Assembly: GCA_944382965.1 (NCBI GenBank)
Contig: CALWOA010000007.1
Coordinates: 1 to 64,000 of the forward strand
Direction: 5' to 3'
DNA from: an uncultured Oscillospiraceae bacterium
Lineage (GTDB): Bacteria; Bacillota; Clostridia; Oscillospirales; Oscillospiraceae
Length of the DNA stretch: 64,000 bases
Shown: piece after piece, positions 39,729 through 56,759 of the stretch
Layout of the letters: each line of letters opens with the position of its first letter
Position numbering within the stretch: the first letter of the stretch is position 1
Notes under the pieces: model-generated
Told to the model about the DNA's origin: nothing
What the model saw: only the letters and a program-made list of their open reading frames with translations
The model's database searches: none
Position numbers and translations under genes: made by a program

Positions 39729-39776
39729 CTTATATTGCCGTGCAAGTTGAAATCCTGATTTGGGGAAGAGTACAAT
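39729..39776 (+). promoter_or_regulatory. operator-like motif and promoter of the molybdenum-hydroxylase operon
   Basis: The motif ACTTATATTG-CCG-TGCAAGTTG spans 39728-39749, with flanking arms CAACTT...AAGTTG. It reaches into a candidate promoter TTGAAA (39747-39752), 18 bp, TACAAT (39771-39776). The same motif with a different 3-base centre lies at 50080-50101. The rest of 39589-39828 is AT-rich intergenic DNA without a gene. Confidence 0.6.
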
Positions 39777-39828
39777 GATATTGAGGCAGGCACCGCCTTT
39801 GAATCGCCATGCTAAGGAGAGGAAAGAC

Positions 39829-40080
39829 ATGGACGAACCCGTTTTTGAAATTTCCGCTCAGGAAGTTACCCTGGAGGTAGTGGATGCCCGCACCGGCAGA
39901 CACTACCGCAGAACCTTGCCCATTGATTACTATGAAACCGCCAACACCCTGGTACTTCGGGGAGAAAATCTGGATGGGAGCTTTTCCCAGTTGGTTTTTT
40001 ACTCCGACCGAGGTGCCCAGCGACTGCAGGATCTGACCGGAAAGGGCGCTGATCAGGACCCCTGCGGCACACACGTCTAA
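39829..40080 (+). CDS. small hypothetical protein at head of Mo-hydroxylase operon
   Basis: An 83-residue protein I do not recognise. It starts MDEPVFEISAQEVTLEVVDA and contains a beta-rich pattern (RHYRRTLPIDYYETANTL, LRGENLDGSFSQLVFYSD) ending in a short tail with one cysteine (DPCGTHV). No signal peptide. ATG at 39829 follows AAGGAGAGGAA. It ends 36 bp before the aldehyde-oxidoreductase-type gene and shares its promoter, so it may be a small accessory or regulatory subunit of that enzyme. Confidence 0.65.
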   Translation: MDEPVFEISAQEVTLEVVDARTGRHYRRTLPIDYYETANTLVLRGENLDGSFSQLVFYSDRGAQRLQDLTGKGADQDPCGTHV

Positions 40081-40116
40081 CCCGCCCCACATCTGGTACA
40101 AAAAGGAGGAAATGGT

Positions 40117-42873
40117 ATGATCAAGAAAACGCTGATTATCAACGGCGTCACCCGGACGCTGCTGGTGGAAGAGAACGAAACCCTTGCCTCTGTACTCCGG
40201 GAGCGGCTGCTGCTCACCGGATGCAAAATCGGCTGCGGCGAAGGTCACTGCGGTGCCTGTAATGTGATCGTCGACGGAAAAGTAACCCGTTCGTGTATTG
40301 TCAAGATGAGCCGTATCAAAGACGGCGCAGAAATCACCACCATCGAGGGCATCGGCACCATTTCCGACATGCACCCGCTGCAGGTAGCCTGGATGGCCCA
40401 CGGCTGTGCCCAGTGCGGCTTCTGTTCTCCCGGCTTTATTATGAGCGCCAAGGTGCTGCTGGACAACAATCCCTCCCCCACCCGTCAAGAGGTTCGGGAC
40501 TGGTTCCAAAAAAACCGGAATCTGTGCCGCTGCACCGGCTATAAACCCCTGATTGATGCCGTTATGGATGCCGCTCGGGTCATCCGGGGCGAAATCACCA
40601 AAGAAGATCTGGTATTCAAGCCCACTGGTGACTCCATTGTTGGCACCAAATACATCCGTCCCTCTGCCGCCCAGAAGGTCACCGGCACCTGGGACTTTGG
40701 CGCTGACGACGCGCTGAAAATGCCCGCCGATACCCTGCGTCTTGCTCTGGTGCAGGCTAAGGTCAGCCACGCCCTGATCAAAGGTATCGACACCTCCGCC
40801 GCGGAGAAAATGCCCGGTGTATTCCGGATCATCACCGCCAAGGACATCGTGGCCGCCGGCGGCAAAAACCGGATCAACGGTCTGGTCATGCTGCCGCTGA
40901 ACAACAAGTGCGACGGCTGGGACCGTCCGGTGCTGTGTGACGAAAAGATTTTCCAGTTCGGTGACGCCATTGCCATCGTCGCCGCCGACACCGAAGCCCA
41001 TGCCCGGGCCGCCGCCGATGCGGTGATAGTGGATATTGAGCAGCTGCCGGCCTACATGAATGCCATGGACGCCATTGCCGAGGACGCCATTGAGATCCAC
41101 CCAGGTACTCCCAACGCCTACTACGAAACCAACTGTATCAAGGGCCCGGACTTTGATTTTGATTCTGCCCCCAATGTGGTGGAAATTGAATCCTACTGCT
41201 CCCGTCAGCCCCATCTGCATCTGGAACCGGACTGCGGCTATGCCTACATCGACGAGGACGGCATGGTCACCGTCCACTCCAAGTCCATCGGCATCCATCT
41301 GCATATGCCCATGATTGCCGACGGCATCGGTGTGCCCATGGAGAAGCTGCGTCTGGTGCAGAACCATTCCGGCGGTACCTTCGGCTACAAGTTCTCCCCC
41401 ACCAACGAAGCCATTCTGGGCGCCGCTGCCAAGATTCTGCAGCGTCCTGTTTCCCTGGTGTTTAACCAGTTCCAGAATATCACCTATACCGGCAAACGAA
41501 GCCCCGCCTTTATGCATATCAAGCTGGCTGCCGACGAAAACGGCAAGCTGCTGGGTCTATGGGGCAACAACTACATTGACCATGGCCCGTACTCCGAGTT
41601 CGGTGACCTGCTGACCCATCGCCTGAGCCAGTTTGTGGGCGCCGGCTACCACATTCCCACCATCCGCAACAAGTCCACTACTGTCTTTACCAACCACGCC
41701 TGGGGCTCCGCCTTCCGGGCCTACGGTTCTCCCCAGTCCTTCATGGGCTCGGAAATCGCCATTGACGTACTGGCAGCCAAGATAGGCATTGATCCTTTCG
41801 ACATCCGGGAACGCAACTGCTATAAGGAATCCGAGCATTCCACCATCCCCACCGGCTATGCCCCCGATGTCTACTGTCTGGAAGAAATGTACAAGGTAGC
41901 TCGTCCTCTGTATGAGGCAGGTAAGAAGCGGGTTGCCGAGAAAAATGCCGCCTCCGACGGCCGGTTCAAGTACGGCATCGGTGTTTCCTCCGGTGTCTAC
42001 GGCTGCGGTCTGGACGGCGTGGATGCTTCCCAGGCCTATGCGGAACTGAATCCCGACGGCACCGTCACCATGTACGCTTCCTGGGAAGATCATGGTCAGG
42101 GTGCAGATATGGGTGTTCTGGTTTCCGCCCACGAAACCCTGCGTCAGGCCGGTATCAAGCCGGAGCAGATCCGTTTGGTAATGAACGACACCAAGATTAC
42201 CCCCAACTCTGGTCCCGCCGGTGGTTCCCGGAGCCAGGTCATGTCCGGTAATGCCTGCCGTCTGGCTGCGGAAAACCTACTGGCTGCCATGAAGAAAGAC
42301 GACGGCACCTACCGCACCTACGAAGAAATGAAGGCGGAAGGAATCGAAACCAAGGTTCAAGGTCAGTGGGTCACCACCTACTGTGCCGAGCATCCTGTGG
42401 ATCAGGCCACCGCTCAGGGTGAACCCTTCGCCACCTACATGTACACCCTGTTCCTGCCGGAGGTCTGCGTGGACACCCAGACCGGTAAAGTCACCGTTGA
42501 AAAGTTCACCTGTGTGGCTGACGTGGGCACCATTATGAACAAGCTGCTGGTAGACGGCAACTTCTACGGCGGTCTGGCTCAGGGCATCGGCCTGGCACTG
42601 AGCGAAGATTTCGACGATCTGAGCAAACATACCAGCCTGAAAAACTGCGGCATTCCCTACCCGAAGGACATTCCCGACGATATCGAACTGCACTACACCC
42701 AGACCTATCGTCCCAATGGTCCTTACGGTGCGGCAGGCTGCGGCGAAGCACCTCTGGATGCTCCTCATCCCGCCATCCTCAACGCCATTTTCAACGCCAC
42801 CGGCGCCCGGATCACCCGGGTTCCCGCTCTGCCGGAGGTTGTGCTGGCAGCACTGAAGGAACTGAAGGCATAA
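40117..42873 (+). CDS. mop: molybdenum aldehyde oxidoreductase (MOP type, xanthine oxidase family)
   Basis: A 918-residue single-chain molybdopterin hydroxylase. The plant-type [2Fe-2S] cysteines are C40, C45, C48, C60 and the second cluster's are C100, C103, C137, C139, the same numbers known for the Desulfovibrio gigas aldehyde oxidoreductase. The Mo-cofactor domains follow from about 180, with GGTFGYKFSP, RAYGSPQ, GPAGGSRSQ and the catalytic glutamate in AAGCGEAP (E877). No FAD domain, unlike xanthine dehydrogenase, so electrons must leave through another protein. Likely oxidises aldehydes or N-heterocycles to acids or hydroxylated products. RBS AAGGAGG. First large gene of a seven- or eight-gene unit whose later genes seem made for it. 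Confidence 0.93.
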   Translation: MIKKTLIINGVTRTLLVEENETLASVLRERLLLTGCKIGCGEGHCGACNVIVDGKVTRSCIVKMSRIKDGAEITTIEGIGTISDMHPLQVAWMAHGCAQCGFCSPGFIMSAKVLLDNNPSPTRQEVRDWFQKNRNLCRCTGYKPLIDAVMDAARVIRGEITKEDLVFKPTGDSIVGTKYIRPSAAQKVTGTWDFGADDALKMPADTLRLALVQAKVSHALIKGIDTSAAEKMPGVFRIITAKDIVAAGGKNRINGLVMLPLNNKCDGWDRPVLCDEKIFQFGDAIAIVAADTEAHARAAADAVIVDIEQLPAYMNAMDAIAEDAIEIHPGTPNAYYETNCIKGPDFDFDSAPNVVEIESYCSRQPHLHLEPDCGYAYIDEDGMVTVHSKSIGIHLHMPMIADGIGVPMEKLRLVQNHSGGTFGYKFSPTNEAILGAAAKILQRPVSLVFNQFQNITYTGKRSPAFMHIKLAADENGKLLGLWGNNYIDHGPYSEFGDLLTHRLSQFVGAGYHIPTIRNKSTTVFTNHAWGSAFRAYGSPQSFMGSEIAIDVLAAKIGIDPFDIRERNCYKESEHSTIPTGYAPDVYCLEEMYKVARPLYEAGKKRVAEKNAASDGRFKYGIGVSSGVYGCGLDGVDASQAYAELNPDGTVTMYASWEDHGQGADMGVLVSAHETLRQAGIKPEQIRLVMNDTKITPNSGPAGGSRSQVMSGNACRLAAENLLAAMKKDDGTYRTYEEMKAEGIETKVQGQWVTTYCAEHPVDQATAQGEPFATYMYTLFLPEVCVDTQTGKVTVEKFTCVADVGTIMNKLLVDGNFYGGLAQGIGLALSEDFDDLSKHTSLKNCGIPYPKDIPDDIELHYTQTYRPNGPYGAAGCGEAPLDAPHPAILNAIFNATGARITRVPALPEVVLAALKELKA

Positions 42874-42890
42874 CACATGTTACCTTACCC

Positions 42891-42918
42891 ATTGAGAGGC
42901 GGGAAACCGCCTCTCAAT
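42891..42918 (+). other. hairpin between mop and the dicluster gene
   Basis: Perfect 12-bp stem ATTGAGAGGCGG / CCGCCTCTCAAT with a GAAA tetraloop, no T tract. More likely a transcript-processing or stability element than a terminator; it may set a higher level of the enzyme relative to its accessory proteins. Confidence 0.65.
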
Positions 42919-42949
42919 TCGCAATCCTGGCAAAAAGGAAGTGACTGCC

Positions 42950-45220
42950 GTGAAAATTGAAGAACGCGCCTCCACCCATGTCTATCGTCAGAAGCGGATG
43001 TTCACCAAAGAGGAACTGGAAGCCCGGGAACGTCTGTGCGTCCACGAGCAGCCGCCCTACTGCAATGCCGCTTGCCCACTGAAATTGGATGTCAAGACCA
43101 TGACCGCCGCCATCGCTGGAGGAGATTTTGACAAAGCTTTGGGGCTGTACGAAAAAATCACTCCCTTTCCCCATCTGCTGTCCGCCGGATGCGAAGCCCC
43201 TTGTGAGGGAAAATGCAAGCTCTGTTCCCTGGGAGAAGGCATCGCCATCCGGGAACTGGAGCGTGCTGCCATTGCCTATGGCTCCCGCACTCGCAGCCGA
43301 AGTCTGCTTCGAAAAAAGAATACCAAAATCGGCATTTTCGGCGGGGATTTGTTCACTCTGTTTTTGGCGGGAGAACTGGCCAAGAAGCGGTATCCGGTCA
43401 GTCTGTTCTGTTCCCAGACCGATGGGGATGCTCTGGCAGCGTCCTGTGCCCCGGACTTTTCGGAAGCGGTACGCACCGCCACCGCCCGTACCCTGTCCAA
43501 TCTGGATATTGAGGTTTTCTGGAATACCGATCCCAGCCAAGCATATCGGCAACATTCCTGCCAGTTTGATTTGACCGCCGCGGCTTTTTCCGTTGCCAGG
43601 CAACTGTTTCCCGAAATTGTTCCCGACGAAGCTGTAATGGTCAGCCGGGAACATCATCTGATCACCGGCCCCACCCAGGGAGTCCTGGGCGCTGCCTTCG
43701 GCGCAAAAAAAGCGGCCCTGTCCGCTGACCGTTTGGCTCAGCACCTGGACCCGTCCAATACCCGCGGGGAAGAAGGCAGTGTGGAAACCCGGCTCTATAC
43801 TGACCTGGAGGGAGTCCTTCCTTCTCTGCGAATCGCCGTTTCCGGTCCCGATTCTGCCAAAGCCGAAGCGCTCCGGTGCATCCAATGCCAGTGCGACGTA
43901 TGCATCCGGGGGTGTGCGTATCTGCGGCACTATCAGACGTTCCCCCGACTGCTGACTCGGGAAATCTACAACAATGTGTCCATCATCATGGGCGATCACA
44001 TGATGAACAAACCCATCAACGCCTGCTCTTTGTGCGGGCAATGCAGCGTGCTTTGCCCCAACGGCTACGACATGGGCGAAATTTGTCATATTGCCCGACA
44101 GAATATGGTTACCACAGGCAAGATGCCCCTGGCTCCCCATGAGTTTGCCCTGATGGACATGCTGTTTTCCAACGAGGAAGCCTTCCTCTGCCGCCCTCAG
44201 CCAGGGCATCAACAGTGCCGCTATGTCTTTTTCCCCGGCTGTCAGGCAGCCGCCATTGCTCCGGCCACCGTCCGGGCAGCGTATCTGGATCTGTGCCGCC
44301 GGTTGGAAGGGGGCATTGCCCTGATTCTGGGCTGCTGCGGTGCCATCTGCGATTGGGCGGGGCGGTATGAACTCTACGACCAAACTGCCGCTTTTCTGGA
44401 CAATGCCCTGGCGCAGTTGGGCAATCCCAAAATCATCGCCGGATGCCCCACCTGCAAAAAAGAACTCTCCTCCCATCCCGGTTTGGAAATCGCCGGAATT
44501 TGGGAGATTCTGGAACAAATTGGCCTGCCAGAAAAGGCCCATCCGCCTGCCCGTCCGGTTGCGCTGCACGATGCCTGCGGCGCCCGGGGAGACCCCAGAA
44601 CCCAACGGAGCATCCGCACACTTGCCCAAAAGCTGGGCTGTCACGTGGTAGATACCCCTTACTCCGGTGACCAGTCCCCCTGCTGCGGCTATGGCGGTCT
44701 GACCCAGTATACCAACCGAGAGGTGGCGAAAAAAATGACCGAAGCCTGTCTGGAGCGTTCGGATCTTCCCTATTTGAGCTACTGCATGGCATGCCGGGAT
44801 CGGTTTGCCCGGGAAGGGCGGGAATCCATGCACCTGCTGGAACTGGTCTACGGCACCAGTGCCGACCACTGTCCGGACATCAGCGCCAAGCGTTTTAACC
44901 GGCTGCGGCTGAAGCAGGAACTTCTGAAAGAATACTGGCACGAGGAGGTAGACACTGTGCAGCTGGGCTTTACCATCCGCTATGCCCCGGGGGCGGAAGC
45001 CCTGATGGATGAGCGGATGATCCTGAAATCCGACGTAATTGCGGTTTTGCAGCATCTGCGAAGCACCGGCGAAGCCATCGCCGATGCGGACACCGGCCTG
45101 TGCATCACCCGGGCAAGGCTGGGCAATGTGACATTCTGGGTAAAGTATCAGGAAACAGAGGACGGATATCTGGTCTTCAGCGCCTACAGCCACCGTATGA
45201 ATGTGGTCAATCGGCAGTAA
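42950..45220 (+). CDS. multi-cluster Fe-S protein of the pyridine nucleotide-disulfide oxidoreductase/dicluster-binding family (DVU_1558-like)
   Basis: A 756-residue iron-sulfur protein. N-terminal dihydropyrimidine-dehydrogenase-like cysteine region (CNAACPLKLDV, then CEAPCEGKCKLC); a degenerate Rossmann region (KIGIFGGDLFTLFLAGELA) where FAD-dependent relatives have GxGxxG; a ferredoxin-like pair CIQCQCDVCIRGC and CSLCGQCSVLCPNG (about 308-370); then two CCG-type motifs of the heterodisulfide-reductase kind (FFPGCQAAA...GCCGA, GCPTC, DACGARG...CCGYGG). It could carry electrons from the Mo enzyme to a cell acceptor. Start GTG 42950, with AAGGAA 9-10 bp upstream; an earlier GTG at 42941 is poorly spaced. 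The final 90 residues are a separate small domain of unknown role. Family name from memory. Confidence 0.82.
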   Translation: MKIEERASTHVYRQKRMFTKEELEARERLCVHEQPPYCNAACPLKLDVKTMTAAIAGGDFDKALGLYEKITPFPHLLSAGCEAPCEGKCKLCSLGEGIAIRELERAAIAYGSRTRSRSLLRKKNTKIGIFGGDLFTLFLAGELAKKRYPVSLFCSQTDGDALAASCAPDFSEAVRTATARTLSNLDIEVFWNTDPSQAYRQHSCQFDLTAAAFSVARQLFPEIVPDEAVMVSREHHLITGPTQGVLGAAFGAKKAALSADRLAQHLDPSNTRGEEGSVETRLYTDLEGVLPSLRIAVSGPDSAKAEALRCIQCQCDVCIRGCAYLRHYQTFPRLLTREIYNNVSIIMGDHMMNKPINACSLCGQCSVLCPNGYDMGEICHIARQNMVTTGKMPLAPHEFALMDMLFSNEEAFLCRPQPGHQQCRYVFFPGCQAAAIAPATVRAAYLDLCRRLEGGIALILGCCGAICDWAGRYELYDQTAAFLDNALAQLGNPKIIAGCPTCKKELSSHPGLEIAGIWEILEQIGLPEKAHPPARPVALHDACGARGDPRTQRSIRTLAQKLGCHVVDTPYSGDQSPCCGYGGLTQYTNREVAKKMTEACLERSDLPYLSYCMACRDRFAREGRESMHLLELVYGTSADHCPDISAKRFNRLRLKQELLKEYWHEEVDTVQLGFTIRYAPGAEALMDERMILKSDVIAVLQHLRSTGEAIADADTGLCITRARLGNVTFWVKYQETEDGYLVFSAYSHRMNVVNRQ

Positions 45221-45233
45221 AAGGAGCATTTCC

Positions 45234-45452
45234 ATGGCAGATAAGAATTACTATACCATCGACCCGGAAGGGAAATTGACCTGCATGAAGTGCCGGTGTG
45301 CGCTGGAAAAAGGCAAGGCTAAATTTCTGTATCTGGACAACGGCTTTCCGGTAGAGCTTCCGGTGTGTCCCCAGTGCGGCTTTGTCTACGTTCCGGAGGA
45401 GCTGGCTCTGGGCAAGGTCCTCTCCGTGGAGAAAGCATTGGAGGACAAATGA
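45234..45452 (+). CDS. small CxxC redox protein (DVU_1557 family)
   Basis: A 72-residue protein with two CxxC motifs: CMKCRCALEKGKAKFLYL (about 17-34) and PVCPQCGFVYVPEEL (about 45-60), that is, a zinc-ribbon or rubredoxin-like metal site. The family is annotated as a redox protein in the Desulfovibrio DVU1551-1559 neighbourhood (from memory). ATG at 45234 behind AAGGAG. Its end overlaps or touches the methyltransferase start. Probably a small electron carrier or metal-site donor. Confidence 0.8.
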   Translation: MADKNYYTIDPEGKLTCMKCRCALEKGKAKFLYLDNGFPVELPVCPQCGFVYVPEELALGKVLSVEKALEDK

Positions 45453-45967
45453 TGAATACCCACCCTGGCGGCGAAGAACACAGCCGCTATCTCATGGAGC
45501 TTTCCTTTCTGCCGCCGGGAAGCCGGGTGCTGGATATGGGCGCCGGTGACGGCAGAACGGTAAACCTGCTGCGAAAGCTTGGCTATGCAGCAGTGGGAAT
45601 CGATATTGCGCCCAGAAGTGATGATGTGGAAGCGGGAGATTTTCTGCATCTGCCCTACCCATCGGAGCACTTTGACGGCGTGATTTCCCAGTGCAGCTTC
45701 TTCGTCAGCGACGATGTCCCCGGTGCTCTGGCAGAAGCCGCCCGGGTATTGCGTCCCGGGGGAAAGCTGGTCTTTTCCGACGTGACCCGGGATGTGGTGC
45801 AGCTTCTTTCTCAGGTTCGTCAGGCAGGCTTCGCCGTGCGGCACCTGGAGGATCTGACCCCAGCCTGGCAGGAATATTACCTGGAAGCCCTGTGGAAAAG
45901 CCAGGACTGCACCCTGCCCACAGGAAAAGCGGTGCAATATGTGCTGTTTGTCTGCGAAAGGAAGTGA
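45452..45967 (+). CDS. trsM: SAM-dependent methyltransferase, TrsM/DVU_1556 type
   Basis: A 171-residue class I methyltransferase. Motif I is VLDMGAGDGRT (about 25-35), motif II GIDIAPRS, motif IV-like GVISQCSFFVSDD (about 71-83), then LRPGGKLVFSD. It is short and has no evident substrate domain. Two start codons overlap the previous stop (ATGATG); 45452 gives a 7-bp gap to GGAGG and 45449 a 4-bp gap. It sits between the redox protein and the C-GCAxxG-C-C protein, as in the TrsM/TrsS neighbourhoods. The methyl acceptor is unknown. Confidence 0.82.
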   Translation: MNTHPGGEEHSRYLMELSFLPPGSRVLDMGAGDGRTVNLLRKLGYAAVGIDIAPRSDDVEAGDFLHLPYPSEHFDGVISQCSFFVSDDVPGALAEAARVLRPGGKLVFSDVTRDVVQLLSQVRQAGFAVRHLEDLTPAWQEYYLEALWKSQDCTLPTGKAVQYVLFVCERK

Positions 45968-45971
45968 CGGT

Positions 45972-46397
45972 ATGGACTTAACCCAACGAATTCTGGAACT
46001 TTCTCAGTATGGCTATTTCTGCTCCCAGATTTTGGCCATTTTGCTGCTGGAAACCATCGGCGAGGAGAATCCCAAACTGGTGCAGGCCATGGCAGGATTA
46101 AATGGGGGCGTGGGATTTTCCGGAGGTGTCTGCGGCTGCATGACCGGCGGCTGCTGTTTGCTATCCTATTTTACGGGAAAACCTGACGATTCCCATTACG
46201 ACAGTCCCCACCACAAGCCTGCCCTATCAGAATTTACCCGCTGGTTTACCGAGGAAATGGAGATGGAATACCAGTCCATAGACTGCCGGGACATCACCAA
46301 AGGAAATCCTGCCAAGCGGGTACAGTACTGCCCGGAAATCATCGCGCAAACCTATGAAAAATGTATGGAAATTTTAGAAAGCAAAGGATTTCTTTAA
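45972..46397 (+). CDS. C-GCAxxG-C-C family protein (DVU_1555-like)
   Basis: A 141-residue protein with the C_GCAxxG_C_C type cysteine pattern, readable as FSGGVCGCMTGGCCLLSYF (about 49-67), and an earlier cysteine at about 18 (YFCSQILA). These cysteines may hold a metal or Fe-S cluster; the family is often described as possible redox or oxidoreductase. ATG at 45972 with AAAGGAAG upstream. Followed directly by the radical SAM gene with no gap. Role inferred only from position. Confidence 0.78.
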   Translation: MDLTQRILELSQYGYFCSQILAILLLETIGEENPKLVQAMAGLNGGVGFSGGVCGCMTGGCCLLSYFTGKPDDSHYDSPHHKPALSEFTRWFTEEMEMEYQSIDCRDITKGNPAKRVQYCPEIIAQTYEKCMEILESKGFL

Positions 46398-47714
46398 ATG
46401 ATAATTGGAAAAACCGAAAGCGTCTGTCCGGTGTGCCTTGGTCGGATTCCGGCAAAAAAAGTTGTGGGCAGGGACGGCTTCGTTTATCTGGAAAAAAGCT
46501 GCCCGGACCATGGGGAATTTTCCGCGCTGATCTGGGAGGACACGGCAGACAGCTATCTGTCCTGGGGCAGCCAGGATACCCCAGGAAAAGTCCTCCCAGC
46601 AGGTGCCCAGCTGCCGGAGCGAGGCTGTCCCTATGACTGCGGGCTGTGCCAAAATCACGAACGGGACGGCTGCTGTGTGCTGCTGGAACTGACCAACCGT
46701 TGTAACCTGCGCTGCCCGGTGTGCTTCGCCAGTGCGGGTGATGCTGCACCGCAGGATCTTACTTTGGAGGAAATCGGCAGGCAGTATGACCTGCTGATGC
46801 AGCGGGGCGGCCCCTTCAACATCCAGCTGTCCGGCGGAGAACCCACTCTGCGGGATGACCTGCCGGAAATTGTGGCTCTGGGTCGTGAAAAGGGCTTTTC
46901 CTTCTTTCAGCTCAACACCAACGGATTGCGGCTGGGCCAGGAGGATGGGTATGCCCAACACCTGGCACAGGCCGGGGTCAGCACCGTGTTTTTGCAGTTT
47001 GACGGATTGGATGACGAAATTTATCAGGCCCTCCGGGGCACAGCCCTATACGAAAAAAAATGCCGCGCCATCGCTGCCTGCGAAAAAGCCAATCTTCCGG
47101 TGGTACTGGTTCCCACCATCGTCCCCGGTATCAACGATCAGGCGCTGGGGCAAATAATCCGCTTTGGACTGGAACACGCCCCACATGTCCGTGGTGTCCA
47201 TATGCAGCCGGTATCCTACTTTGGCCGCTGCGATCTGCACACTCCGCCTCGACATCTGACAATTCCCGGAGTTTTGCGGCGTATCGAAACGCAAACCCAA
47301 GGAAAATTGAAGGCCGCCGATTTTGGCGGCGGCGGTGCGGAGAGCCCCTATTGCTCCTTCCACGCCAGTTATCTGCATCGAGAGGATGGCAGCTGGAAGG
47401 CCCTTCCCCGGCGCAGAAATGCCTGCTGCTGCGTCAAAAGCAGCGATGCCCGGGAAGCCGTCTCCCGGCAGTGGAGCGGGCGCCTTTCCTCTGGGGATGC
47501 GGACCCGGATACTGCATCGCTGGATGCCTTTCTGGCGCAAATCGTGCGCAATACCTTTACCGTCTCCGGCATGGTGTTTCAGGATGCCTATAACCTGGAT
47601 CTGGAACGTCTGCGCCGGTGCTACATCTGCGAAGCGGACAGCCGGTATGGCATGGTTCCCTTCTGCGCCTACAATCTGACCGACAATTCCGGTCGTTCCT
47701 TGTATCGAAGATGA
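46398..47714 (+). CDS. trsS: radical SAM protein TrsS type (DVU_1554-like)
   Basis: A 438-residue radical SAM enzyme. An N-terminal zinc-ribbon-like part (CPVCLGRIP, then CPDHGEF and CPYDCGLC) precedes the SAM cluster motif in NRCNLRCPVCFASAGD (CxxxCxxC, about 99-106), GGEPTLRDD and the barrel. The C-terminal region has a cluster of cysteines (RNACCCVKSS, about 335-344, and CYICEADSRYG, FCAYNL) that may bind auxiliary clusters. The TrsS family includes selenoproteins; this copy has no in-frame stop, so it is the all-cysteine form. Product unknown; probable modification of a protein or cofactor in the Mo system. Overlaps the ligase start (ATGA). Confidence 0.82.
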   Translation: MIIGKTESVCPVCLGRIPAKKVVGRDGFVYLEKSCPDHGEFSALIWEDTADSYLSWGSQDTPGKVLPAGAQLPERGCPYDCGLCQNHERDGCCVLLELTNRCNLRCPVCFASAGDAAPQDLTLEEIGRQYDLLMQRGGPFNIQLSGGEPTLRDDLPEIVALGREKGFSFFQLNTNGLRLGQEDGYAQHLAQAGVSTVFLQFDGLDDEIYQALRGTALYEKKCRAIAACEKANLPVVLVPTIVPGINDQALGQIIRFGLEHAPHVRGVHMQPVSYFGRCDLHTPPRHLTIPGVLRRIETQTQGKLKAADFGGGGAESPYCSFHASYLHREDGSWKALPRRRNACCCVKSSDAREAVSRQWSGRLSSGDADPDTASLDAFLAQIVRNTFTVSGMVFQDAYNLDLERLRRCYICEADSRYGMVPFCAYNLTDNSGRSLYRR

Positions 47715-49936: not shown

Positions 49937-50079
49937 TGTGATCCCTCCCTTTCTTTTCTCTATTTCCGCTGCCTTTGACGAAATTTTCTTTTCCATTATA
50001 TCAAATATGCACAAACTTTCAATATCATCGAAAGAGTATATTTACATATCATCCAATCTACGCTATAGTGTTTGCAAGG

Positions 50080-50115
50080 ACTTATATTGAAATGCAAGTT
50101 GCTTTTTGATACAAT
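50080..50115 (+). promoter_or_regulatory. operator-like motif and promoter of the MocA-ModE / transporter operon
   Basis: Motif ACTTATATTG-AAA-TGCAAGTTG at 50080-50101 overlaps the -35 TTGAAA (50087-50092); 17 bp later comes TACAAT (50110-50115), 18 bp before the start codon. Matches the motif at 39728-39749 in 19 of 22 positions (only the central triplet differs). Candidate autoregulatory site for the ModE-like domain of the gene that follows. Confidence 0.65.
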
Positions 50116-50133
50116 TTAGAGGAGGTTGTTCCC

Positions 50134-51060
50134 ATGCAGACTGCCGCCTTAATCGTTGCCGCAGGCAAATCCTCCCGAATGGGACAGTTCAAGCCTATGC
50201 TCAGCATCGGGTCCATTTCCGTAGCTCAGCGTGTTGTGGCTACGCTGAGCCAGGCTGGTGTGAGCAAAATTGTCATGGTCACCGGCTGCAATGCCACCAT
50301 GCTGGAACGCCATCTCAGTGGAAACGGAATTATTTTCCTGCGCAATGAGCAGTACGCCACCACCCAGATGTTTGACTCCGCTAAAATCGGCCTTGCTTAC
50401 TTGCAGGACAAGTGTGACCGGGTGTTGTTTACCCCGGTGGACGTGCCGCTCTTCACCGCCGGTACTGTCCGGGCGCTGCTGGATTCCGATGCGGCGTTGG
50501 CCTGTCCGGAATGTAGAGGGCAGCAGGGGCACCCCATTTTAATCAGCGCCGCCCTGATTCCGGAAATTCTGGCAGACTGCGGCGCCCAGGGTCTGCGGGG
50601 CGCCTTGGAGCGATGTTCCCAGCCCATTGTCCCTGTTGCGGTGGATGATCCAGGCACCCTCCAGGATGCCGATACCCCCGAGGATTTTTCCGCCCTGCTG
50701 GAGTACCACAACGCACAACTGGTTCGCCCGGTGGTCAGTGTATCGCTATACAAGGAAAAACTATTTTTCGACAGCAAAATCGCCATGCTGCTGATGTTGA
50801 TTTCGGAGACCAGCTCCGTTCGTGCTGCAGGGCAGCGGATGCAGCTGAGTTATTCCAGCTGCTGGAATATCATCCGAACCCTGGAAAGCCAATTGGGATA
50901 CTCCCTGGTTGCCCGCAGTCAGGGCGGCGCCGGGGGCAGTACCAGCATGTTAACCGAGCAGGGCAAACAGCTGCTGGCCCAATACACCGCCTACGAGCAG
51001 CGCCTGAAAGACCTGGCCAATCAGCTGTATGACGACTATTTTGGAGGGTTGTTTCCATGA
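50134..51060 (+). CDS. MocA-like nucleotidyltransferase fused to ModE-like DNA-binding domain (DVU_1551 family)
   Basis: A 308-residue two-domain protein. Residues 1-190 are a MobA-like NTP transferase (molybdenum cofactor cytidylyl/guanylyltransferase): AALIVAAGKSSRMGQFKPML (about 3-22), and TPVDVPLF (about 99-106). After a linker, residues about 210-300 match the N-terminal domain of ModE, the molybdate-responsive repressor: a winged-helix (MQLSYSSCWNIIRTLE) and the ModE hallmark GGAGGSTSMLTEQG (compare GGKGGGGAVLT in E. coli). The molybdate-sensing MOP domain of ModE is absent. It may load CMP or GMP onto Mo cofactor for the Mop enzyme and control its operons. First gene of a tightly packed unit. 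Confidence 0.88.
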   Translation: MQTAALIVAAGKSSRMGQFKPMLSIGSISVAQRVVATLSQAGVSKIVMVTGCNATMLERHLSGNGIIFLRNEQYATTQMFDSAKIGLAYLQDKCDRVLFTPVDVPLFTAGTVRALLDSDAALACPECRGQQGHPILISAALIPEILADCGAQGLRGALERCSQPIVPVAVDDPGTLQDADTPEDFSALLEYHNAQLVRPVVSVSLYKEKLFFDSKIAMLLMLISETSSVRAAGQRMQLSYSSCWNIIRTLESQLGYSLVARSQGGAGGSTSMLTEQGKQLLAQYTAYEQRLKDLANQLYDDYFGGLFP

Positions 51061-51611
51061 AACGGGTCTATCTGATTCGTCACGGGCTGCCGGACTTCCC
51101 CCAAGGGCAGCGGATGTGCCTGGGACGAACCGATCTTCCCCTGGGCGTGACTGGGTTGGAGCAGGCCCGTGCCATGGCGGCTTCTCTGCCGCCGGTAAGC
51201 GCCGTATTTTCCAGCCCCCTGCAAAGAGCGCTGCAAACCGCCCAGGCCATTGGCAATCCTATCATCGTGGAGGGCTTACAGGAACTTTCCGCCGGGTATT
51301 GGGACGGGCTGCTTTTCTCAGAGATTCAGCAGCGCTATCCAGCACTGTACGCTGCCCGGGGAATTACCCCCGGTCTGCCCCTTCCCAACGGGGAGTCGGA
51401 TGAATCGGGGCTTCTTCGCTTCTGCCAGGCCATGGAGCAGGCCGCCGGGATGGCCTCCGGCGATTTCGCCGTGGTGTCCCATGGCGGCGTAATCCGGCTG
51501 TTTCTTCGTCATTTGGGCGGGCATCCCCGGAAACCAGCCTATACAGAAGTTGTCCCACTACTTTACGAAAACGGCAATTTTATTCTACAGGAGGAAATGC
51601 CCCATGCGTAA
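51057..51611 (+). CDS. histidine phosphatase family protein
   Basis: A 184-residue phosphoglycerate-mutase-like phosphatase. RHG motif YLIRHGLPDFP (about 4-14) with the nucleophile histidine, FSSPLQRALQTAQAIG (about 50-65), catalytic glutamate in ELSAGYWDG, and the second histidine in VVSHGGVIR (about 144-152). The family includes CobC-type alpha-ribazole phosphatases and many unspecified enzymes. ATGA overlap with the previous gene and an 8-base overlap with xdhC, so it is part of the Mo operon; its substrate there is unclear. Confidence 0.88.
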   Translation: MKRVYLIRHGLPDFPQGQRMCLGRTDLPLGVTGLEQARAMAASLPPVSAVFSSPLQRALQTAQAIGNPIIVEGLQELSAGYWDGLLFSEIQQRYPALYAARGITPGLPLPNGESDESGLLRFCQAMEQAAGMASGDFAVVSHGGVIRLFLRHLGGHPRKPAYTEVVPLLYENGNFILQEEMPHA

Positions 51612-52596
51612 TATGCTGAAACTAATGCAATCCCACCTGGAGCAGGGAGAAGACTTGGTACTCCTCACCGTCATCGCCGCCTCCGGCGCTACGCCCCGGG
51701 GCACCGGTGCCAGAATGCTGGTAGGCCCCGGCGGACGGCTGTGCGGCACCATTGGCGGCGGCGCAGTAGAATACCGCTCCCAGCAGATTGCCAAAAAGGT
51801 TCTGGAGGAAAAAAGCTCCTACGGTCACGACTTCTCTCTGACCAAGGACGATGTACAGAACTTAGGAATGATCTGCGGCGGCGCTGTCACCGTTTATTTT
51901 CACTACATTCCCGCCGGAGATCCGGAAACCATTGCCCTGGCCCAGGAGGCAGAACGGCGGTTTTCTCTGGATCAGGACCTGTGGCTGGTCAGCGACATTG
52001 CCGCAGGCGGCACACTTTCTCTGACTGACCGGACCAATACCGAACTGGCACCTCACCTGACCCGCCACCCCCACCGGATTCAGGAAGATGGAAAAGACCT
52101 TTACATTGAACAGATTCACTCCGCCGGAAAGGTGTACATCTTCGGCGGCGGTCATGTGGCCCAGGAATTGGTGCCGGTACTGGCCCATGTGGGCTTCCGC
52201 TGCGTGGTGATGGACGACCGGGCGGAATTTACCCGTCCGGAGCTGTTCCCCGGCGCCCAGCATGTAATCCAGGGAGATCTGCGCAAAATTTCTGATTACC
52301 TGACCATTGGCAGTGAAGATTATGTTTGCGTTATGACCCGGGGGCATGCCTTTGATACTCTGGTACAGGCCCAGGTTCTGAAGTGCCGCCCCTGCTACTG
52401 CGGCGTCATCGGCAGCCGTGCCAAGGCCGCCGGAGTCCGGAAGGTGCTGAAAGAAGAATACGGCCTGACGGATGCAGAACTGGATCTGGTCACCACTCCC
52501 ATCGGCCTGGACATCAAGGGCGAAACCCCGGCGGAAATCGCCATTTCCATCGCCGCCCAGATGATTCTCCACCGGGCGGAGCGAAATTGTCAATGA
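51604..52596 (+). CDS. xdhC: XdhC/CoxI family protein (Mo cofactor sulfuration/insertion)
   Basis: A 330-residue XdhC-type protein that binds Mo cofactor and promotes its sulfuration and insertion into xanthine-oxidase-family enzymes. The N-terminal XdhC_CoxI domain has GATPRGTGARMLV (about 28-40) and GTIGGGAVE (about 48-56); the Rossmann domain (PF13478 type) begins KVYIFGGGHVAQELVPVL (about 177-194) and ends near TTPIGLDIKGETPAEIAISIAAQ (about 299-321). ATG 51604; overlaps both neighbours. The probable client is the Mop-type enzyme at 40117-42873. Confidence 0.92.
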   Translation: MRNMLKLMQSHLEQGEDLVLLTVIAASGATPRGTGARMLVGPGGRLCGTIGGGAVEYRSQQIAKKVLEEKSSYGHDFSLTKDDVQNLGMICGGAVTVYFHYIPAGDPETIALAQEAERRFSLDQDLWLVSDIAAGGTLSLTDRTNTELAPHLTRHPHRIQEDGKDLYIEQIHSAGKVYIFGGGHVAQELVPVLAHVGFRCVVMDDRAEFTRPELFPGAQHVIQGDLRKISDYLTIGSEDYVCVMTRGHAFDTLVQAQVLKCRPCYCGVIGSRAKAAGVRKVLKEEYGLTDAELDLVTTPIGLDIKGETPAEIAISIAAQMILHRAERNCQ

Positions 52597-53156
52597 GGCG
52601 GCGGCTGTTTCTAACCGGGCCTATGGGCTGCGGAAAAAGCACCGCCATTGCCCAGGCCCTGGGCAGCCAAAGTCAGCTGGGAGGCGGATTCTTCACCCGG
52701 CGCAGTGTTGATCCGGATGGACATGCCCGGTCCTTTTTTCTGGAAACCCCGGACGGCAAGGAAAAGGCGGTTTTTCTGGACGTATCTCAAGGGCATCCTG
52801 TGGTGCATGCGGACGTTTTTTCCCGGCTTGGGGCAAGGCTGCTGGATGACAATACCGCCAGATTCGTGATTCTGGATGAAATCGGCGGCATTGAAGTACT
52901 GTGTCCTGCCTTCATGGAGGCGTTGGAGCGGCTGTGGCAGCGAAACATTCCCTGCATTGGGGTCATCAAGGGTCAGGCCCCGGCCGCTGCCCTGATCCGC
53001 GCTCTGGGTCTGCCGGAAGAATATGCCAAAGTCGCCGGAAATCTGCGGGATTTCCTGGAGAACGATCCGGACACCCTGGTGTATCACAGCGAGTATTTTG
53101 ATGAAACGGCACGGAACTTGGCAATCCAGTGGTGCCGGGAGTATGCATATGAATGA
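52593..53156 (+). CDS. nucleoside-triphosphatase (THEP1-like P-loop NTPase)
   Basis: A 187-residue P-loop protein of the NTPase_1/THEP1 kind. Walker A TGPMGCGKSTA (about 8-18), Walker B FVILDEIGGIEVL (about 91-103), and the segment LGGGFFTRR (about 29-37), which fits family members with a KxxGxxT...E pattern. Its ATGA start overlaps xdhC and it overlaps the DUF364 gene by 8 bases. In other Mo clusters a similar NTPase (e.g. mobB-like or YqeC-like) helps cofactor handling; the role here is inferred only from position. Confidence 0.85.
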   Translation: MRRRLFLTGPMGCGKSTAIAQALGSQSQLGGGFFTRRSVDPDGHARSFFLETPDGKEKAVFLDVSQGHPVVHADVFSRLGARLLDDNTARFVILDEIGGIEVLCPAFMEALERLWQRNIPCIGVIKGQAPAAALIRALGLPEEYAKVAGNLRDFLENDPDTLVYHSEYFDETARNLAIQWCREYAYE

Positions 53157-53889
53157 TTTTTTCGCGCTTTATGATGTCCTGCTGGAAGGTGTTCCGGATC
53201 TGCCTGTTTTGAATGCTTTGTCCTGCGACTGCTGGACGGGGGTGGAAACCCAAGATGGCTTCGGTCTTGCCATGACCACCCCGGGAGATACCATTGCCCC
53301 CATGTTGTTCCGGCCCTATGATGCCTTATCTCTGAGAGAACTCTCCCAGGGAGTAAAAAGCTGGAATTTCACAGAAGCCGGCTTTTCCATGGCCGCCATC
53401 AACGCGGGGTACAATACCGAAGGGCATTTGCAGCAGCTGCAAGCCCTGGAACCCTTTGAACACTACTGCACCCGGGGACTGGATGTAAGCGGTAAGCGCA
53501 TCGGCGTGGTGGGGCATCTGAACATGCCGGAATTTATCCGCCTGGAGGCCAAAGAAGTATGGATTCTGGAGCGTAAACCCCAACCCGGGGACTACCCGGA
53601 CTCCGCCTGTGAGTTGCTGCTTCCCCGGTGCGATATTGTTCTGATTACCGCAAGCACCCTGGTAAACAAAACCCTGCCCCGGCTTCTGGAGCTTTGTGCC
53701 GACGCTTACACCATTCTTACCGGCCCCACCTGCCCAATGTGTCCGGCACTGCTGGACATGGGATTTGACCGTCTGGCGGGACTGGTGGTTACGAACCGCC
53801 CCGGCATGAAAGAAAAAATCTCCGCCAACCTGCCCGGCCCGCCCTATCCCCTGGGCCAGCCGTTTCTGCTGACGAGGGAACGCCTATGA
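53149..53889 (+). CDS. DUF364 (heavy-metal chelation-like) family protein
   Basis: A 246-residue protein with N-terminal DUF4213-like and C-terminal DUF364 parts: GFGLAMTTPGDT (about 35-46), AAINAGYN (about 80-87), a Rossmann-like strand GKRIGVVGHLNMPEF (about 113-127), then VLITASTLVNKTLPRLLEL (about 162-180) and LTGPTCPMCPALLDMG (about 188-203). Members are often near metal-transport genes and are thought to bind metals, without proof. ATG 53149 with GGGAG 7 bp upstream is preferred to the ATG six bases earlier. ATGA overlap with the permease gene. Confidence 0.82.
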   Translation: MNDFFALYDVLLEGVPDLPVLNALSCDCWTGVETQDGFGLAMTTPGDTIAPMLFRPYDALSLRELSQGVKSWNFTEAGFSMAAINAGYNTEGHLQQLQALEPFEHYCTRGLDVSGKRIGVVGHLNMPEFIRLEAKEVWILERKPQPGDYPDSACELLLPRCDIVLITASTLVNKTLPRLLELCADAYTILTGPTCPMCPALLDMGFDRLAGLVVTNRPGMKEKISANLPGPPYPLGQPFLLTRERL

Positions 53890-54911
53890 AACAAACCTTT
53901 CTCACCCCCCGCAACAAAATCATTCTGCTGGCAGTGCTTCTGATTGTGTGCATCCTGGGTTCGTTCACCCTGGGGCACTACCCGGTTCCCCTGCCCCAGC
54001 TGCTGGGCATTCTGGGTGAGCGCTTGGGGCTGCCAATCCAGCCCTTCTGGACAACCCAGATGGAAACGGCGGTATGGAATATCCGCCTGCCCCGGGTGCT
54101 GCTGAGCGTTCTGGTGGGAGCCTGTCTTGCCGGAGCCGGTGCCAGCTATCAAGGCATTTTCCAAAACCCTATGGCCTCCCCGGATATCTTGGGCGCTTCC
54201 GCCGGAGCGGGATTCGGCGCTGCCCTGGCCATTCTGGCAGGTTTTTCCAGTGTGGGTATTACCCTAGGGGCTTTTGTGTGCAGCCTGGGCACGGTGGCTC
54301 TGGTATTCACCGTCAGCCGCCACGCCAAAGGTGATCGGATTCTGGGACTGGTACTGGCAGGAATTATGGTTAGCTCTCTGTTCCAAGCCGGAACCTCCTT
54401 TATCAAGTTGGTGGCAGACCCTACCAACAAACTGCCTCAGATTACTTACTGGCTCATGGGCAGCCTGTCCGGGGCCAAATGGCAGGAGCTTGGGTTCGTC
54501 CTGATTCCCATGCTGGCAGGACTGATTCCCCTGCTTTTGCTGCGCTGGCAGCTGAACGTGGTCACCATGGGCGACGACGAAGCCCGGGCCATGGGTGTCA
54601 ACGCCCCGAAAGTACGGCTTTGGGTGGTACTGTGTTCCACCCTTGTCACCGCCTCCGCCGTCTCCGTCAGCGGTATGATCGGCTGGGTGGGACTGGTGAT
54701 TCCCCATATGCTCCGGCGGCTGGTGGGTTCAGATTACCGCTACCTCATGCCCGGCTCTATGCTGGGCGGCAGTGTGTTTTTGCTGATCGTAGACAACGTC
54801 TCCCGCAATGCCACCACGGCGGGCATCCCCATCGGCATCCTTACCGCCTTCATCGGCGCGCCCTTCTTCCTGTGGCTGATTACCGGAAAGGGGGATCATT
54901 ATGAGCATTGA
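53886..54911 (+). CDS. FecCD/BtuC-type ABC transporter permease (probable molybdate/tungstate)
   Basis: A 341-residue permease with about nine to ten hydrophobic helices of the iron-siderophore/B12 importer family. Recognisable: RLPRVLLSVLVGACLAGAGASYQGIFQNP (about 67-95) and GMIGWVGLVIPHMLRR (about 263-278). Same architecture as MolB of Haemophilus (HI1471), which imports molybdate/tungstate. Overlaps both neighbours (4 and 11 bases). Substrate is inferred from the operon. Confidence 0.88.
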   Translation: MKQTFLTPRNKIILLAVLLIVCILGSFTLGHYPVPLPQLLGILGERLGLPIQPFWTTQMETAVWNIRLPRVLLSVLVGACLAGAGASYQGIFQNPMASPDILGASAGAGFGAALAILAGFSSVGITLGAFVCSLGTVALVFTVSRHAKGDRILGLVLAGIMVSSLFQAGTSFIKLVADPTNKLPQITYWLMGSLSGAKWQELGFVLIPMLAGLIPLLLLRWQLNVVTMGDDEARAMGVNAPKVRLWVVLCSTLVTASAVSVSGMIGWVGLVIPHMLRRLVGSDYRYLMPGSMLGGSVFLLIVDNVSRNATTAGIPIGILTAFIGAPFFLWLITGKGDHYEH

Positions 54912-55695
54912 AGTTCGGAACCTGGGTTTTTCCTACGACTCCCGGCAGGTGCTGCACGACATCAGCTTTTCCGTGGGAAAAGGGGAGTTTTTATCCATTC
55001 TTGGCCCCAACGGTGTAGGAAAAAGCACCCTGTTTCGCTGCATTCTGGGACTTTTGTCCGGCTATACCGGAACCGTCATGGTCGATGGTGTAGATGCCCG
55101 GAGCTTTTCCGTCCGGGAAGCTGCCAAGCACATCGCCTACATTCCCCAATCCAGTCGTCCCATTTTCAATTACAGCGTATTCGACATCGTCCTTATGGGA
55201 CGCAGCAGCAGCCTGTCCCCCTTCCGCAGCCCCAGCAAGCAGGATAATGACCGCTGCCGCTGGGCACTGGAAAAGGTGGGTATTTCCCATCTGTCCCAAC
55301 GGTGCTATCACCGGCTCTCCGGCGGTGAACAGCAGCTGGTGCTCATCGCCCGGGCTTTGGTGCAAGATGCCCCCATTCTCATGCTGGACGAACCCACCGC
55401 CAACCTGGACTTCGGCAATCAGCTGCTGGTGCTGGAACAGGCCCGCAGTCTGGCTCTGGAAGGCTACACCGTCATTCAGACCACCCACCACCCGGAGCAG
55501 AGCTACCTGTTCTCCCACCGCATCCTGGCCATCCAGAACGGGCAGGTGCTGACCCAAGGCACCCCCGCCCAAGTACTCACTCCAGAAACCATGAAACTTC
55601 TGTATGGTGTCGACGTGGATGTGGTCAGTCTGTATGAAGATAAAGCCCGAATCTGCATTCCCAAAAATATTACACGTCAGGAGGTATCGTCATGA
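54901..55695 (+). CDS. ABC transporter ATP-binding protein (MolC/BtuD-like)
   Basis: A 264-residue ATPase. Walker A GPNGVGKST (about 37-45), Q-loop PQSSRP (about 82), signature LSGGEQQLVLIARAL (about 139-153), Walker B PILMLDEPTANLD (about 157-169), switch histidine in TTHH. Pairs with the FecCD-type permease. Its start lies inside the end of the permease gene and its end overlaps the binding-protein gene by 4 bases. Confidence 0.94.
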   Translation: MSIEVRNLGFSYDSRQVLHDISFSVGKGEFLSILGPNGVGKSTLFRCILGLLSGYTGTVMVDGVDARSFSVREAAKHIAYIPQSSRPIFNYSVFDIVLMGRSSSLSPFRSPSKQDNDRCRWALEKVGISHLSQRCYHRLSGGEQQLVLIARALVQDAPILMLDEPTANLDFGNQLLVLEQARSLALEGYTVIQTTHHPEQSYLFSHRILAIQNGQVLTQGTPAQVLTPETMKLLYGVDVDVVSLYEDKARICIPKNITRQEVSS

Positions 55696-56759
55696 AACGA
55701 ATTGCGCTGTGTCTTGCGTTGGTGCTCAGTCTGCTGCTGGCGGCCTGCGCCCCGGCCCCCCAGGCAGAGGCCGCCCCCACCCGGGAGTTTACCGACTCCA
55801 CCGGGCGGACCGTCACCATCCCCGAAACCGTAACCAAAATCGCCATTTCCGGCCCCCTGAGTCAGGTTTACATTCTGCCCTTGGCGGGAGATATGCTGGT
55901 AGGCGTCAGCAACGCCTATGCCGAAGATGCCGCCGAGTATCTGCCCGATTACCTGTTTGAAATCACCGAGATCGGACAACTCTACGGTGGCAAAGGAGAA
56001 ATGGATCTGGAAGCCCTGCTGTCAGCAGCCCCGGATGTGGTCATTGACATTGGTGACGCCAAAAGCACCGTCGTGGAAGACATGGACGCCCTGACGGAGC
56101 AGACCGGCATTCCTTTTGTCCATATTGATGCCACAGTAGCTACGGCTCCGGAGGCCTACCGCCTGCTGGGGCAGCTGCTGGGCCGGGAGGAAAAGGCAGA
56201 GGAATTGGCATCCTGGTGTGAAAATACCTATTCGGAACTGACGAAAGTCATGGAGCAGGTAGATGCCGATGGTGCCCGGAAAACCATGCTCTACTGTCTG
56301 GGCGATAAGGGGACCAATGTAATCGCTGAAGGCTCCTTCCACGCCGAAACCGTGAACATGATGAGCCGGAATCTGGCTGTTGTAGAGGACGTGGTATCCA
56401 ACGGCTTAGGCAACGAAGTGGATCTGGAACAGATTCTGTCCTGGGACCCAGACGTAATCATTTTTGCCCCGGACAGCTGTTATGAGGATGTGGGGACTTC
56501 TGCCCAGTGGCAGGGTGTTCGTGCCATTGCGGAAGGCAACTATTACAAGACCCCCTATGGCCCCTACGGCTGGCTGTCCTCTCCCCCTTCCGTCCAGCGG
56601 TATTTAGGCATGCTGTGGCTGGGTGCCTTGCTGTATCCGGAATATATCCAGTACGATCTGCAGGAAGCGGTCACGGAGTACTATAAGCTTTTCTACGACT
56701 GTGATCTGACGGATGAAGCTTATCAGCATCTGATGGAAAACGCCATGCCCGAAACCTGA
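55692..56759 (+). CDS. substrate-binding lipoprotein, TroA-like fold (MolA/BtuF type)
   Basis: A 355-residue class III binding protein. Lipoprotein signal with lipobox LLLAACAPA (lipidated cysteine at about 19). The mature part starts EFTDSTGRTVTIPETVTKIA, the usual opening of this family; two lobes are joined by a long helix around 150-185. The segment GPYGWLSSPPSVQRYLGMLWLGALLYP (about 297-323) resembles the anion-binding region of MolA-like proteins, which bind molybdate/tungstate. Last gene of the second Mo operon; a hairpin follows 8 bp later. Confidence 0.88.
   Translation: MKRIALCLALVLSLLLAACAPAPQAEAAPTREFTDSTGRTVTIPETVTKIAISGPLSQVYILPLAGDMLVGVSNAYAEDAAEYLPDYLFEITEIGQLYGGKGEMDLEALLSAAPDVVIDIGDAKSTVVEDMDALTEQTGIPFVHIDATVATAPEAYRLLGQLLGREEKAEELASWCENTYSELTKVMEQVDADGARKTMLYCLGDKGTNVIAEGSFHAETVNMMSRNLAVVEDVVSNGLGNEVDLEQILSWDPDVIIFAPDSCYEDVGTSAQWQGVRAIAEGNYYKTPYGPYGWLSSPPSVQRYLGMLWLGALLYPEYIQYDLQEAVTEYYKLFYDCDLTDEAYQHLMENAMPET

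Follow-up and report, generated by a model that had tools for sequence, protein, structure and literature searches.

The first 64,000 nucleotides of contig CALWOA010000007.1, from an uncultured gut bacterium of the Oscillospiraceae (GenBank assembly GCA_944382965.1; this whole stretch is called the window), contain two plus-strand operons that are well supported, by sequence comparison, as one system built on a molybdopterin aldehyde oxidoreductase (MOP) and placed under shared control. The first operon also encodes the radical S-adenosylmethionine (SAM) protein TrsS, an AMP-dependent ligase, and a methyltransferase. We favor, tentatively and with somewhat less than even confidence, the reading that these three produce or modify a small carboxylic molecule with which MOP works. 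The assembly comprises 2.63 Mb in 60 contigs, the window being on contig 7, and is 90.8% complete. Genomes and loci are numbered G and L, respectively, with G000 the window genome.

Gene starts are our choice, that of the redox protein (45234) being likely. Operon 1 consists of seven genes (MOP to ligase) whose ends overlap or lie close together, and its region is laid out as follows.

39726-39749, no strand assigned: operator 1, CAACTTATA-N6-TGCAAGTTG, 16/18 to the palindrome; last three bases overlap the predicted −35
39747-39776: predicted promoter of operon 1, TTGAAA-18-TACAAT
39829-40080, plus strand: conserved 83-residue protein of unnamed family; open reading frame (ORF) conserved beside the cluster, directly ahead of MOP
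40117-42873, plus strand: MOP with two 2Fe-2S domains (NF045668 1529 bits, cut-off 1100; Pfam domains)
42941-45220, plus strand: dicluster/CCG protein (DIC; NF045663 780 bits, cut-off 530; Pfam Fer4_20, Fer4_17, CCG)
45234-45452, plus strand: DVU_1557-family small redox protein, two CxxC motifs (NF045645 92 bits, cut-off 60; DUF7479)
45449-45967, plus strand: DVU_1556-family SAM methyltransferase, TrsM-like in the naming of the first-pass annotation (NF045667 119 bits, below the cut-off of 155)
45972-46397, plus strand: DVU_1555-family C-GCAxxG-C-C protein (CGC; NF045669 155.5 bits, cut-off 103)
46398-47714, plus strand: TrsS radical SAM protein (NF045646 581 bits, cut-off 490)
47711-48916, plus strand: AMP-dependent acyl ligase, PaaK-like (NF045666 318 bits, cut-off 300)

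Operon 2 ends at 56759.

50078-50101, no strand assigned: operator 2, 14/18 to the palindrome, overlapping the predicted −35
50087-50115: predicted promoter of operon 2, TTGAAA-17-TACAAT
50134-51060, plus strand: MocA-type (MobA-like) cytidylyltransferase fused to a ModE/LysR-type helix-turn-helix (NTP_transf_3 107 bits)
51057-51611, plus strand: histidine phosphatase, CobC-like (PF00300 117 bits; TIGR03162 107 of 163)
51604-52596, plus strand: XdhC-family maturation factor (NF045664 289 of 350; XdhC_C 138 bits)
52593-53156, plus strand: NTPase (PF03266 51 bits)
53149-53889, plus strand: DUF4213/DUF364 putative heavy-metal chelation protein (domain match)
53886-54911, plus strand: FecCD-type permease (PF01032 300 bits)
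54901-55695, plus strand: ABC ATPase (PF00005 118 bits)
55692-56759, plus strand: periplasmic-binding-type protein, start lipobox-like by eye (PF01497 66 bits)

The genes that the first-pass annotation named in both operons are all present, in order and where it placed them. It missed the 83-residue gene, and a minus-strand TylF-like gene separates the operons. Its start coordinate for the region, 39729, coincides with the edge of an operator shared by both operons. The operator core, ACTTATATTGNNNTGCAAGTTG, precedes operon 1 (39728-39749) and operon 2 (50080), with no other site at up to three mismatches in the 2.63-Mb assembly; a reversed control pattern gave no sites there either. Relatives carry the fuller palindrome CAACTTGTA-N6-TACAAGTTG. 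It was compared with 40 permuted half-site controls over 1,386,765 bases, comprising the window plus 80 named loci, the top-scoring ones among at least 572 relatives from a scan of the genome collection. Five sites match at 16/18 or better (controls none), 17 at 15/18 (controls mean 0.35, maximum 3), and 31 at 14/18 (controls mean 4.3, maximum 16). From 60 bp inside to 450 bp upstream of a system-gene ORF lie 25 of these 31 sites, in front of the small gene (17), mocA (6), MOP (1), and the binding protein (1), with six elsewhere; the distances are rough, since ORFs in the scan run from stop to stop. Overlapping operator copies 17 bp apart occur in L103 (13664/13681), L138 (1228/1245), L110 (2822/2839), and L135 (3264/3281), as if more than one dimer binds.

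The operator tracks with the type of MocA. It is found in 11/16 loci whose MocA is fused to ModE and in 1/23 whose MocA is not; the single locus of the latter kind, L145, encodes a helix-turn-helix protein separately. Of 41 loci where the stretch contains no MocA, seven have the operator. A 14/18 site in L160, away from system genes, is excluded from these counts. The MocA-ModE fusion is therefore the likely regulator of both operons. Its ModE-like part matches TIGR00637 at 60 bits, under the cut-off of 98.5, and HTH_1 at 35 bits (cut-off 26.6). That the operons are merely co-located, the radical SAM part having an unrelated job and the motif being a general molybdenum regulon signal, seems to us very improbable: the operons are indeed separated by an opposite-strand gene, and the second half of the gene set differs between lineages, but the operator occurs in the genome only twice, once per operon, and the phylogenetic profile of the operon 1 genes is tight.

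For this profile, TrsS, MOP, ligase, and methyltransferase were each sought at curated cut-offs in one set of 398 genomes from the phylum; they pass in 24, 26, 24, and 24 genomes, respectively, with all four in 20. TrsS overlaps with each of the other three in 22 genomes (Fisher p, shared ancestry ignored: 5e-30 with MOP, 1e-31 with ligase and with methyltransferase). The strict count is an underestimate, as the window genome itself fails the methyltransferase cut-off. TrsS passes without MOP in G356 and in G076, where a contig end truncates the MOP (953 bits). Four genomes pass for MOP and not for TrsS: in G315 and G072 TrsS reaches 456 and 470 bits; in G083, whose MOP is likewise contig-cut, the best TrsS-like match has 332 bits; the fourth is G207. 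The corresponding genomes are G030 (281.5 bits) and G076 for TrsS without ligase, and G315 and G334 for the converse; TrsS lacks a passing methyltransferase in G000 and G356, and the converse holds in G072 and G315. MOP-like matches at E ≤ 1e-150 were found in 61/398 genomes, and among the 35 of these under the MOP cut-off TrsS exceeds its own only in G076, which ties the cassette to the Desulfovibrio gigas type of MOP. The first-pass annotation had named frequent occurrence of TrsS, TrsM, and ligase without any molybdenum hydroxylase as the profile that would count against it. With 22 of 24 TrsS genomes passing the MOP cut-off its idea is not refuted on this score, and its view of a single system is borne out by the co-occurrence together with the shared operator.

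Gene neighborhoods agree. The cassette was found in Oscillospiraceae, Blautia, Megasphaera, Sporomusa, Desulfotruncus, and Anaerolineae. Among 48 long named loci (at least 9.5 kb upstream and at least 1.4 kb downstream of TrsS), all seven core genes lie on the same strand in 41; counted on either strand, the partners present are MOP (43), DIC (44), redox protein (44), methyltransferase (45), CGC (44), ligase (44), mocA (33), the small gene (34), xdhC (26), and the phosphatase (18). At least one further core gene is present in 76/80 loci. Own profiles detected the NTPase in 2/120, DUF364 in 5/120, and the FecCD permease in 4/120 loci, many stretches being too short to show them. Additional neighbors in loci with at least four core genes are aminotransferase-V proteins resembling cysteine desulfurases (20), molybdopterin-binding-domain (16), TylF-like (15), ModA-like (10), and ModB-like (9) proteins; one member each of the aminotransferase-V, molybdopterin-binding-domain, and TylF-like groups was labeled by Pfam, and the ModA, ModB, and desulfurase labels are our reading of the sequences. 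The description of the two operons as complete and self-contained goes beyond this evidence, as 20 relatives carry the desulfurase-like gene in or beside the cluster, and sulfur donor and molybdopterin synthesis genes were not sought in the window genome. Proteins grouping with DUF5714 adjoin TrsS in L100, L101, and L135-L137 (the Pfam labels cover L063 and L100). In a Pelotomaculum cluster, DIC has a neighbor with the dinitrogenase FeMo-cofactor domain (PF02579; L162, 5605-6012), and similar proteins occur in L064, L065, and L102.

A few genomes separate the parts. G207 has four MOPs (1130-1174 bits), one of them adjoined by DIC (L071), and no TrsS, ligase, or methyltransferase over cut-off. 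Conversely, G356 has a row (L063, 250-6253) of dihydrolipoyl dehydrogenase, TrsS, a second TrsS-like gene, ligase, and DUF5714, with no MOP over cut-off (best match 343 bits); in G334, of the same genus, a 4-kb contig again holds the end of a TrsS-like gene, ligase, and a DUF5714 protein. Four loci have a lone TrsS (L142, L146, L148, L149), and all four genomes hold a ligase over cut-off. Lone-TrsS genomes G398-G400 have DIC, redox protein, and ligase at other loci, as does G401, with DIC at a contig end. As a refutation of coupling these fail in part, G400 and G401 having MOP elsewhere (1100 and 1109 bits); G398 and G399 give no MOP match at E ≤ 1e-100 and are evidence against strict TrsS-MOP coupling. 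In total, 23 named TrsS loci have no MOP in the stretch. The genomes of 20 were searched (L152, L164, and L177 left out), with a match in 15, several partial, and none in G398, G399, G403 (L150), G410 (L132), and G417 (L106); in the last three, other cassette genes sit at a contig start.

The window MOP is shown by full-length sequence matches to be a D. gigas-type aldehyde oxidoreductase, aligning with the D. desulfuricans and D. gigas enzymes at 1167 bits (1dgj) and 1156 bits (1sij/1vlb; 1sij residues 1-914). As in these, there are two 2Fe-2S domains, and a Pfam domain scan found no FAD domain. The nearby MocA gene is consistent with an MCD cofactor. Assignment as a selenium-dependent molybdenum hydroxylase was rejected (TIGR03311 416.5 bits, cut-off 830). 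Elsewhere in G000, a second MoCoBD_1 protein (contig C2, 69159-69878; L001, L082) scores 641 bits to our MOP profile and has a MocA-like gene nearby; it may be another molybdenum hydroxylase that draws on the same cofactor supply.

The first-pass annotation proposed that the radical SAM protein and methyltransferase modify the enzyme or its cofactor. In such a maturation scheme TrsS and the methyltransferase would act on a cysteine or other residue of MOP, or on its molybdopterin, and the ligase would provide an activated group. In favor are the almost one-to-one occurrence and conserved gene order of the cassette with a single MOP type, and the molybdenum-related neighbors, but we think this scheme unlikely. 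The separated cases lean against a pure maturation role: in G207 MOPs pass the cut-off and the other three families do not, and in G356 TrsS and ligase pass with no MOP of this type. Moreover, the 1.28 Å structure of the D. gigas enzyme is described with well-defined pterin rings and a cofactor named MCD, and the accessible part of the review mentions no modification (PMC10223205); the structural argument holds only if D. gigas carries the cassette.

TrsS is, from sequence, a full-length homolog of the tetraether synthase Tes (GDGT-MAS, MJ0619; PDB entries 7tol and 7tom). Against solved proteins, its profile matches 7tol at 415 bits over positions 1-434 of 441, with the next best at 64 bits. 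The window protein scores below the cut-off of the Tes family itself (NF045702 329 bits, cut-off 450). We aligned 104 sequences, namely the window protein and 103 of at least 550 bits and more than 400 residues, excluding nine matches of 400-550 bits. Residues aligned with the Tes rubredoxin site, N-cluster, radical SAM cluster, and C-cluster are each kept in 103-104/104 sequences, and the labile Met of the Tes C-cluster has an aligned Met in 102/104. In the window protein, the residues at these four sites are C10, C13, C35, and H38; C77, C81, C84, and H87; C102, C106, and C109; and C319, C408, and C423 with M392. The Tes ligands of the first three sites and Met439 are given in PMC9433317; we infer the C-cluster cysteines from the alignment, and the identity of the N-cluster His ligand in Tes is our reading. 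No selenocysteine codon is present in the window gene, its frame being open end to end.

TrsS has an invariant Cys92 (104 sequences), which Tes lacks, and a Cys345 in 90/104. The Tes segment preceding the last motif, which we guess to hold lipid-pocket helices, corresponds in TrsS to a linker that varies, frequently contains Cys, and is shorter in the window protein; a smaller substrate is therefore possible. Tes Tyr459 (our numbering) is replaced in TrsS, which is not decisive since Y459F and Y459L variants of Tes retain activity (PMC9433317). The nearest named TrsS among the matches listed is that of Candidatus Faecousia faecavium, 90% identical to the window protein. Four pattern matches in viral contigs yielded no confirmed TrsS there. 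In G300 (L076, 7194-11536), a TrsS-like gene adjoins a DVU1556/ArsM-like methyltransferase, a NapH/HgcAB-like ferredoxin, and SelD, a sister cassette that is possibly selenium-linked.

The ligase is nearest to PaaK (4r1l, 198 bits), and its adenylation residues and Lys396, taken by us as the C-terminal catalytic lysine, are invariant in 21 sequences. Across 20 methyltransferases P6, G8, and Cys82 are invariant; a specifically ArsM-like assignment was discarded, phosphoethanolamine methyltransferases scoring higher (87 versus 64 bits). The retained catalytic residues of the PaaK-like ligase, together with the action of Tes, the solved TrsS relative, on lipids (PMC9433317), would suit a cassette that feeds a specific aldehyde to MOP or removes the acid as acyl-CoA, TrsS and the methyltransferase preparing a lipid-like or aromatic substrate. 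We consider this supply or disposal role unlikely: the Tes stretch guessed to hold the lipid pocket has only the variable linker, shortened in the window protein, opposite it in TrsS, and the disulfide-type DIC is left unexplained.

DIC combines a GltD-type N-terminus with a degenerate Rossmann motif, a dicluster ferredoxin, and two CCG (HdrB-type) motifs. It resembles HdrBC and CCG-domain proteins in the dicluster and paired motifs, and differs in being one chain with the GltD-type N-terminus. Both motifs (C434/C465-C466/C502-C505 and C546/C581-C582/C615-C618) are kept in 91/91 sequences. GxGxxG is absent in 8/13 compared (the window and seven relatives) and kept in five (L080, L165, L169, L180, L181). 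The window MOP gene is followed by the DIC gene; the D. gigas enzyme has been studied with flavodoxin as partner (PMC10223205).

In the carboxylic-molecule reading that we favor, the MocA-ModE fusion would bind the operator and tune both operons to the supply of molybdenum or molybdenum cofactor. MOP would oxidize an aldehyde and pass electrons through its 2Fe-2S centers to DIC. The ligase would adenylate a carboxylate, and TrsS would abstract hydrogen from an unactivated carbon of the carboxylate molecule. The resulting radical would be captured by the 4Fe-4S cluster at the TrsS C-terminus, in the manner of Tes, where the substrate radical ends up in a C-S bond on the corresponding cluster (PMC9433317). 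Release or C-C coupling might follow, with the methyltransferase finishing the molecule. The resulting molecule could then serve with MOP and DIC, whether as their substrate, as their product, or as a redox carrier, and TrsS would not act on MOP itself. A distinctly doubtful variant has the three proteins build an organosulfur redox cofactor, resembling lipoate or coenzyme M/coenzyme B. Here the adenylated acid would be thiolated at an unactivated carbon on the C-terminal cluster of TrsS, then S-methylated or attached, and the cofactor disulfide would accept the aldehyde electrons of MOP through the heterodisulfide reductase (Hdr)-like DIC; the dihydrolipoyl dehydrogenase of G356, beside TrsS, TrsS-like, and ligase genes, would fit the same logic.

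Several points weigh against the carboxylic-molecule reading and the control scheme attached to it. The palindrome was partly derived from the very loci used for its counts, and a single clade could account for the joint occurrence of fusion and operator, kinship being uncorrected. Enzyme maturation would explain the tight co-occurrence equally well. Cases of TrsS and ligase with no MOP are few, and the genomes concerned are either incomplete (G356 at 87%, G334 at 79%) or lack a completeness figure (G398, G399). Finally, an in vitro chain of D. gigas aldehyde oxidoreductase, flavodoxin, cytochrome c3, and hydrogenase delivers the electrons of aldehydes to H2, DIC being unmentioned in the available text (PMC10223205), which leaves DIC unproven as the MOP acceptor.

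The 83-residue gene has ORF matches in 43/120 loci. In 80 genomes examined it was found in six, all among the 26 with MOP over cut-off (0/54 others), which ties it to the system without its being universal there. No Pfam or NCBIfam match was obtained up to E 1, and the AlphaFold model (pLDDT 88) has no fold match in the PDB at E ≤ 0.001. A peptide precursor is unlikely, as the protein is predicted to be a folded domain. The predicted fold of CGC is similar to that of split-Soret cytochrome c (1h21; prob 1.00, TMq 0.68, yet E 0.053). In G401 (L200, minus-strand ligase ORF at about 8.7-10.0 kb), the two-CxxC redox domain and ligase, elsewhere two genes, form a single 428-residue frame, either a fusion or a frame artifact. 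The metal importer of the first-pass annotation holds as a transporter family; sequence does not establish the metal. Two further features lie outside the genes of the system.

48971-50014, minus strand: TylF-like methyltransferase gene between the operons (PF05711 43 bits, cut-off 23)
56767-56799: terminator-like stem downstream of the periplasmic-binding-type protein

The former is not judged part of the system; TylF-like proteins, which may or may not be its homologs, adjoin the cluster in 15 related loci.

The gene kinds of the window are those of the NCBIfam DVU_1551-DVU_1557 families of Desulfovibrio vulgaris plus the radical SAM (seleno)protein TrsS and a DVU_1559-type MOP, and DVU1559 itself is called an aldehyde oxidoreductase in proteomics (PMC10920352, PMC11784015). 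Six of the seven operon 1 proteins (MOP, DIC, redox protein, CGC, TrsS, and ligase) exceed the cut-offs of these families, so the cassette is already curated by name. The window shares the order MOP-DIC-redox protein-methyltransferase-CGC-TrsS-ligase with most long named loci. The DVU gene order given in the first-pass annotation agrees with the name numbers 1557, 1556, 1555, 1553, and then 1551 (MocA), the order in that species being known from family names only. In contrast to the DVU set, the window has the extra 83-residue gene, and its MocA carries a ModE-like domain and belongs to a second operon, which also encodes a FecCD-type importer, an NTPase, and DUF364. The methyltransferase (119/155 bits), XdhC (289/350), and MocA (183/315) fall below the family cut-offs; on the latter two the window set is a divergent copy.

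The cassette is not new, NCBIfam having curated its genes and PMC13188914 citing TrsS from Haft and Tolstoy 2025 (10.1128/msystems.01417-24), which may describe the neighborhood; the operator, small gene, MocA-ModE fusion, and dissociated forms may be. Our literature searches found no recognized study of the function of the radical SAM part, which adjoins a molybdenum enzyme type studied for decades. That function is now made testable by a defined operator, a candidate regulator, a putative Tes-type reaction center, an Hdr-type partner, and genomes that carry some of the parts without the others.

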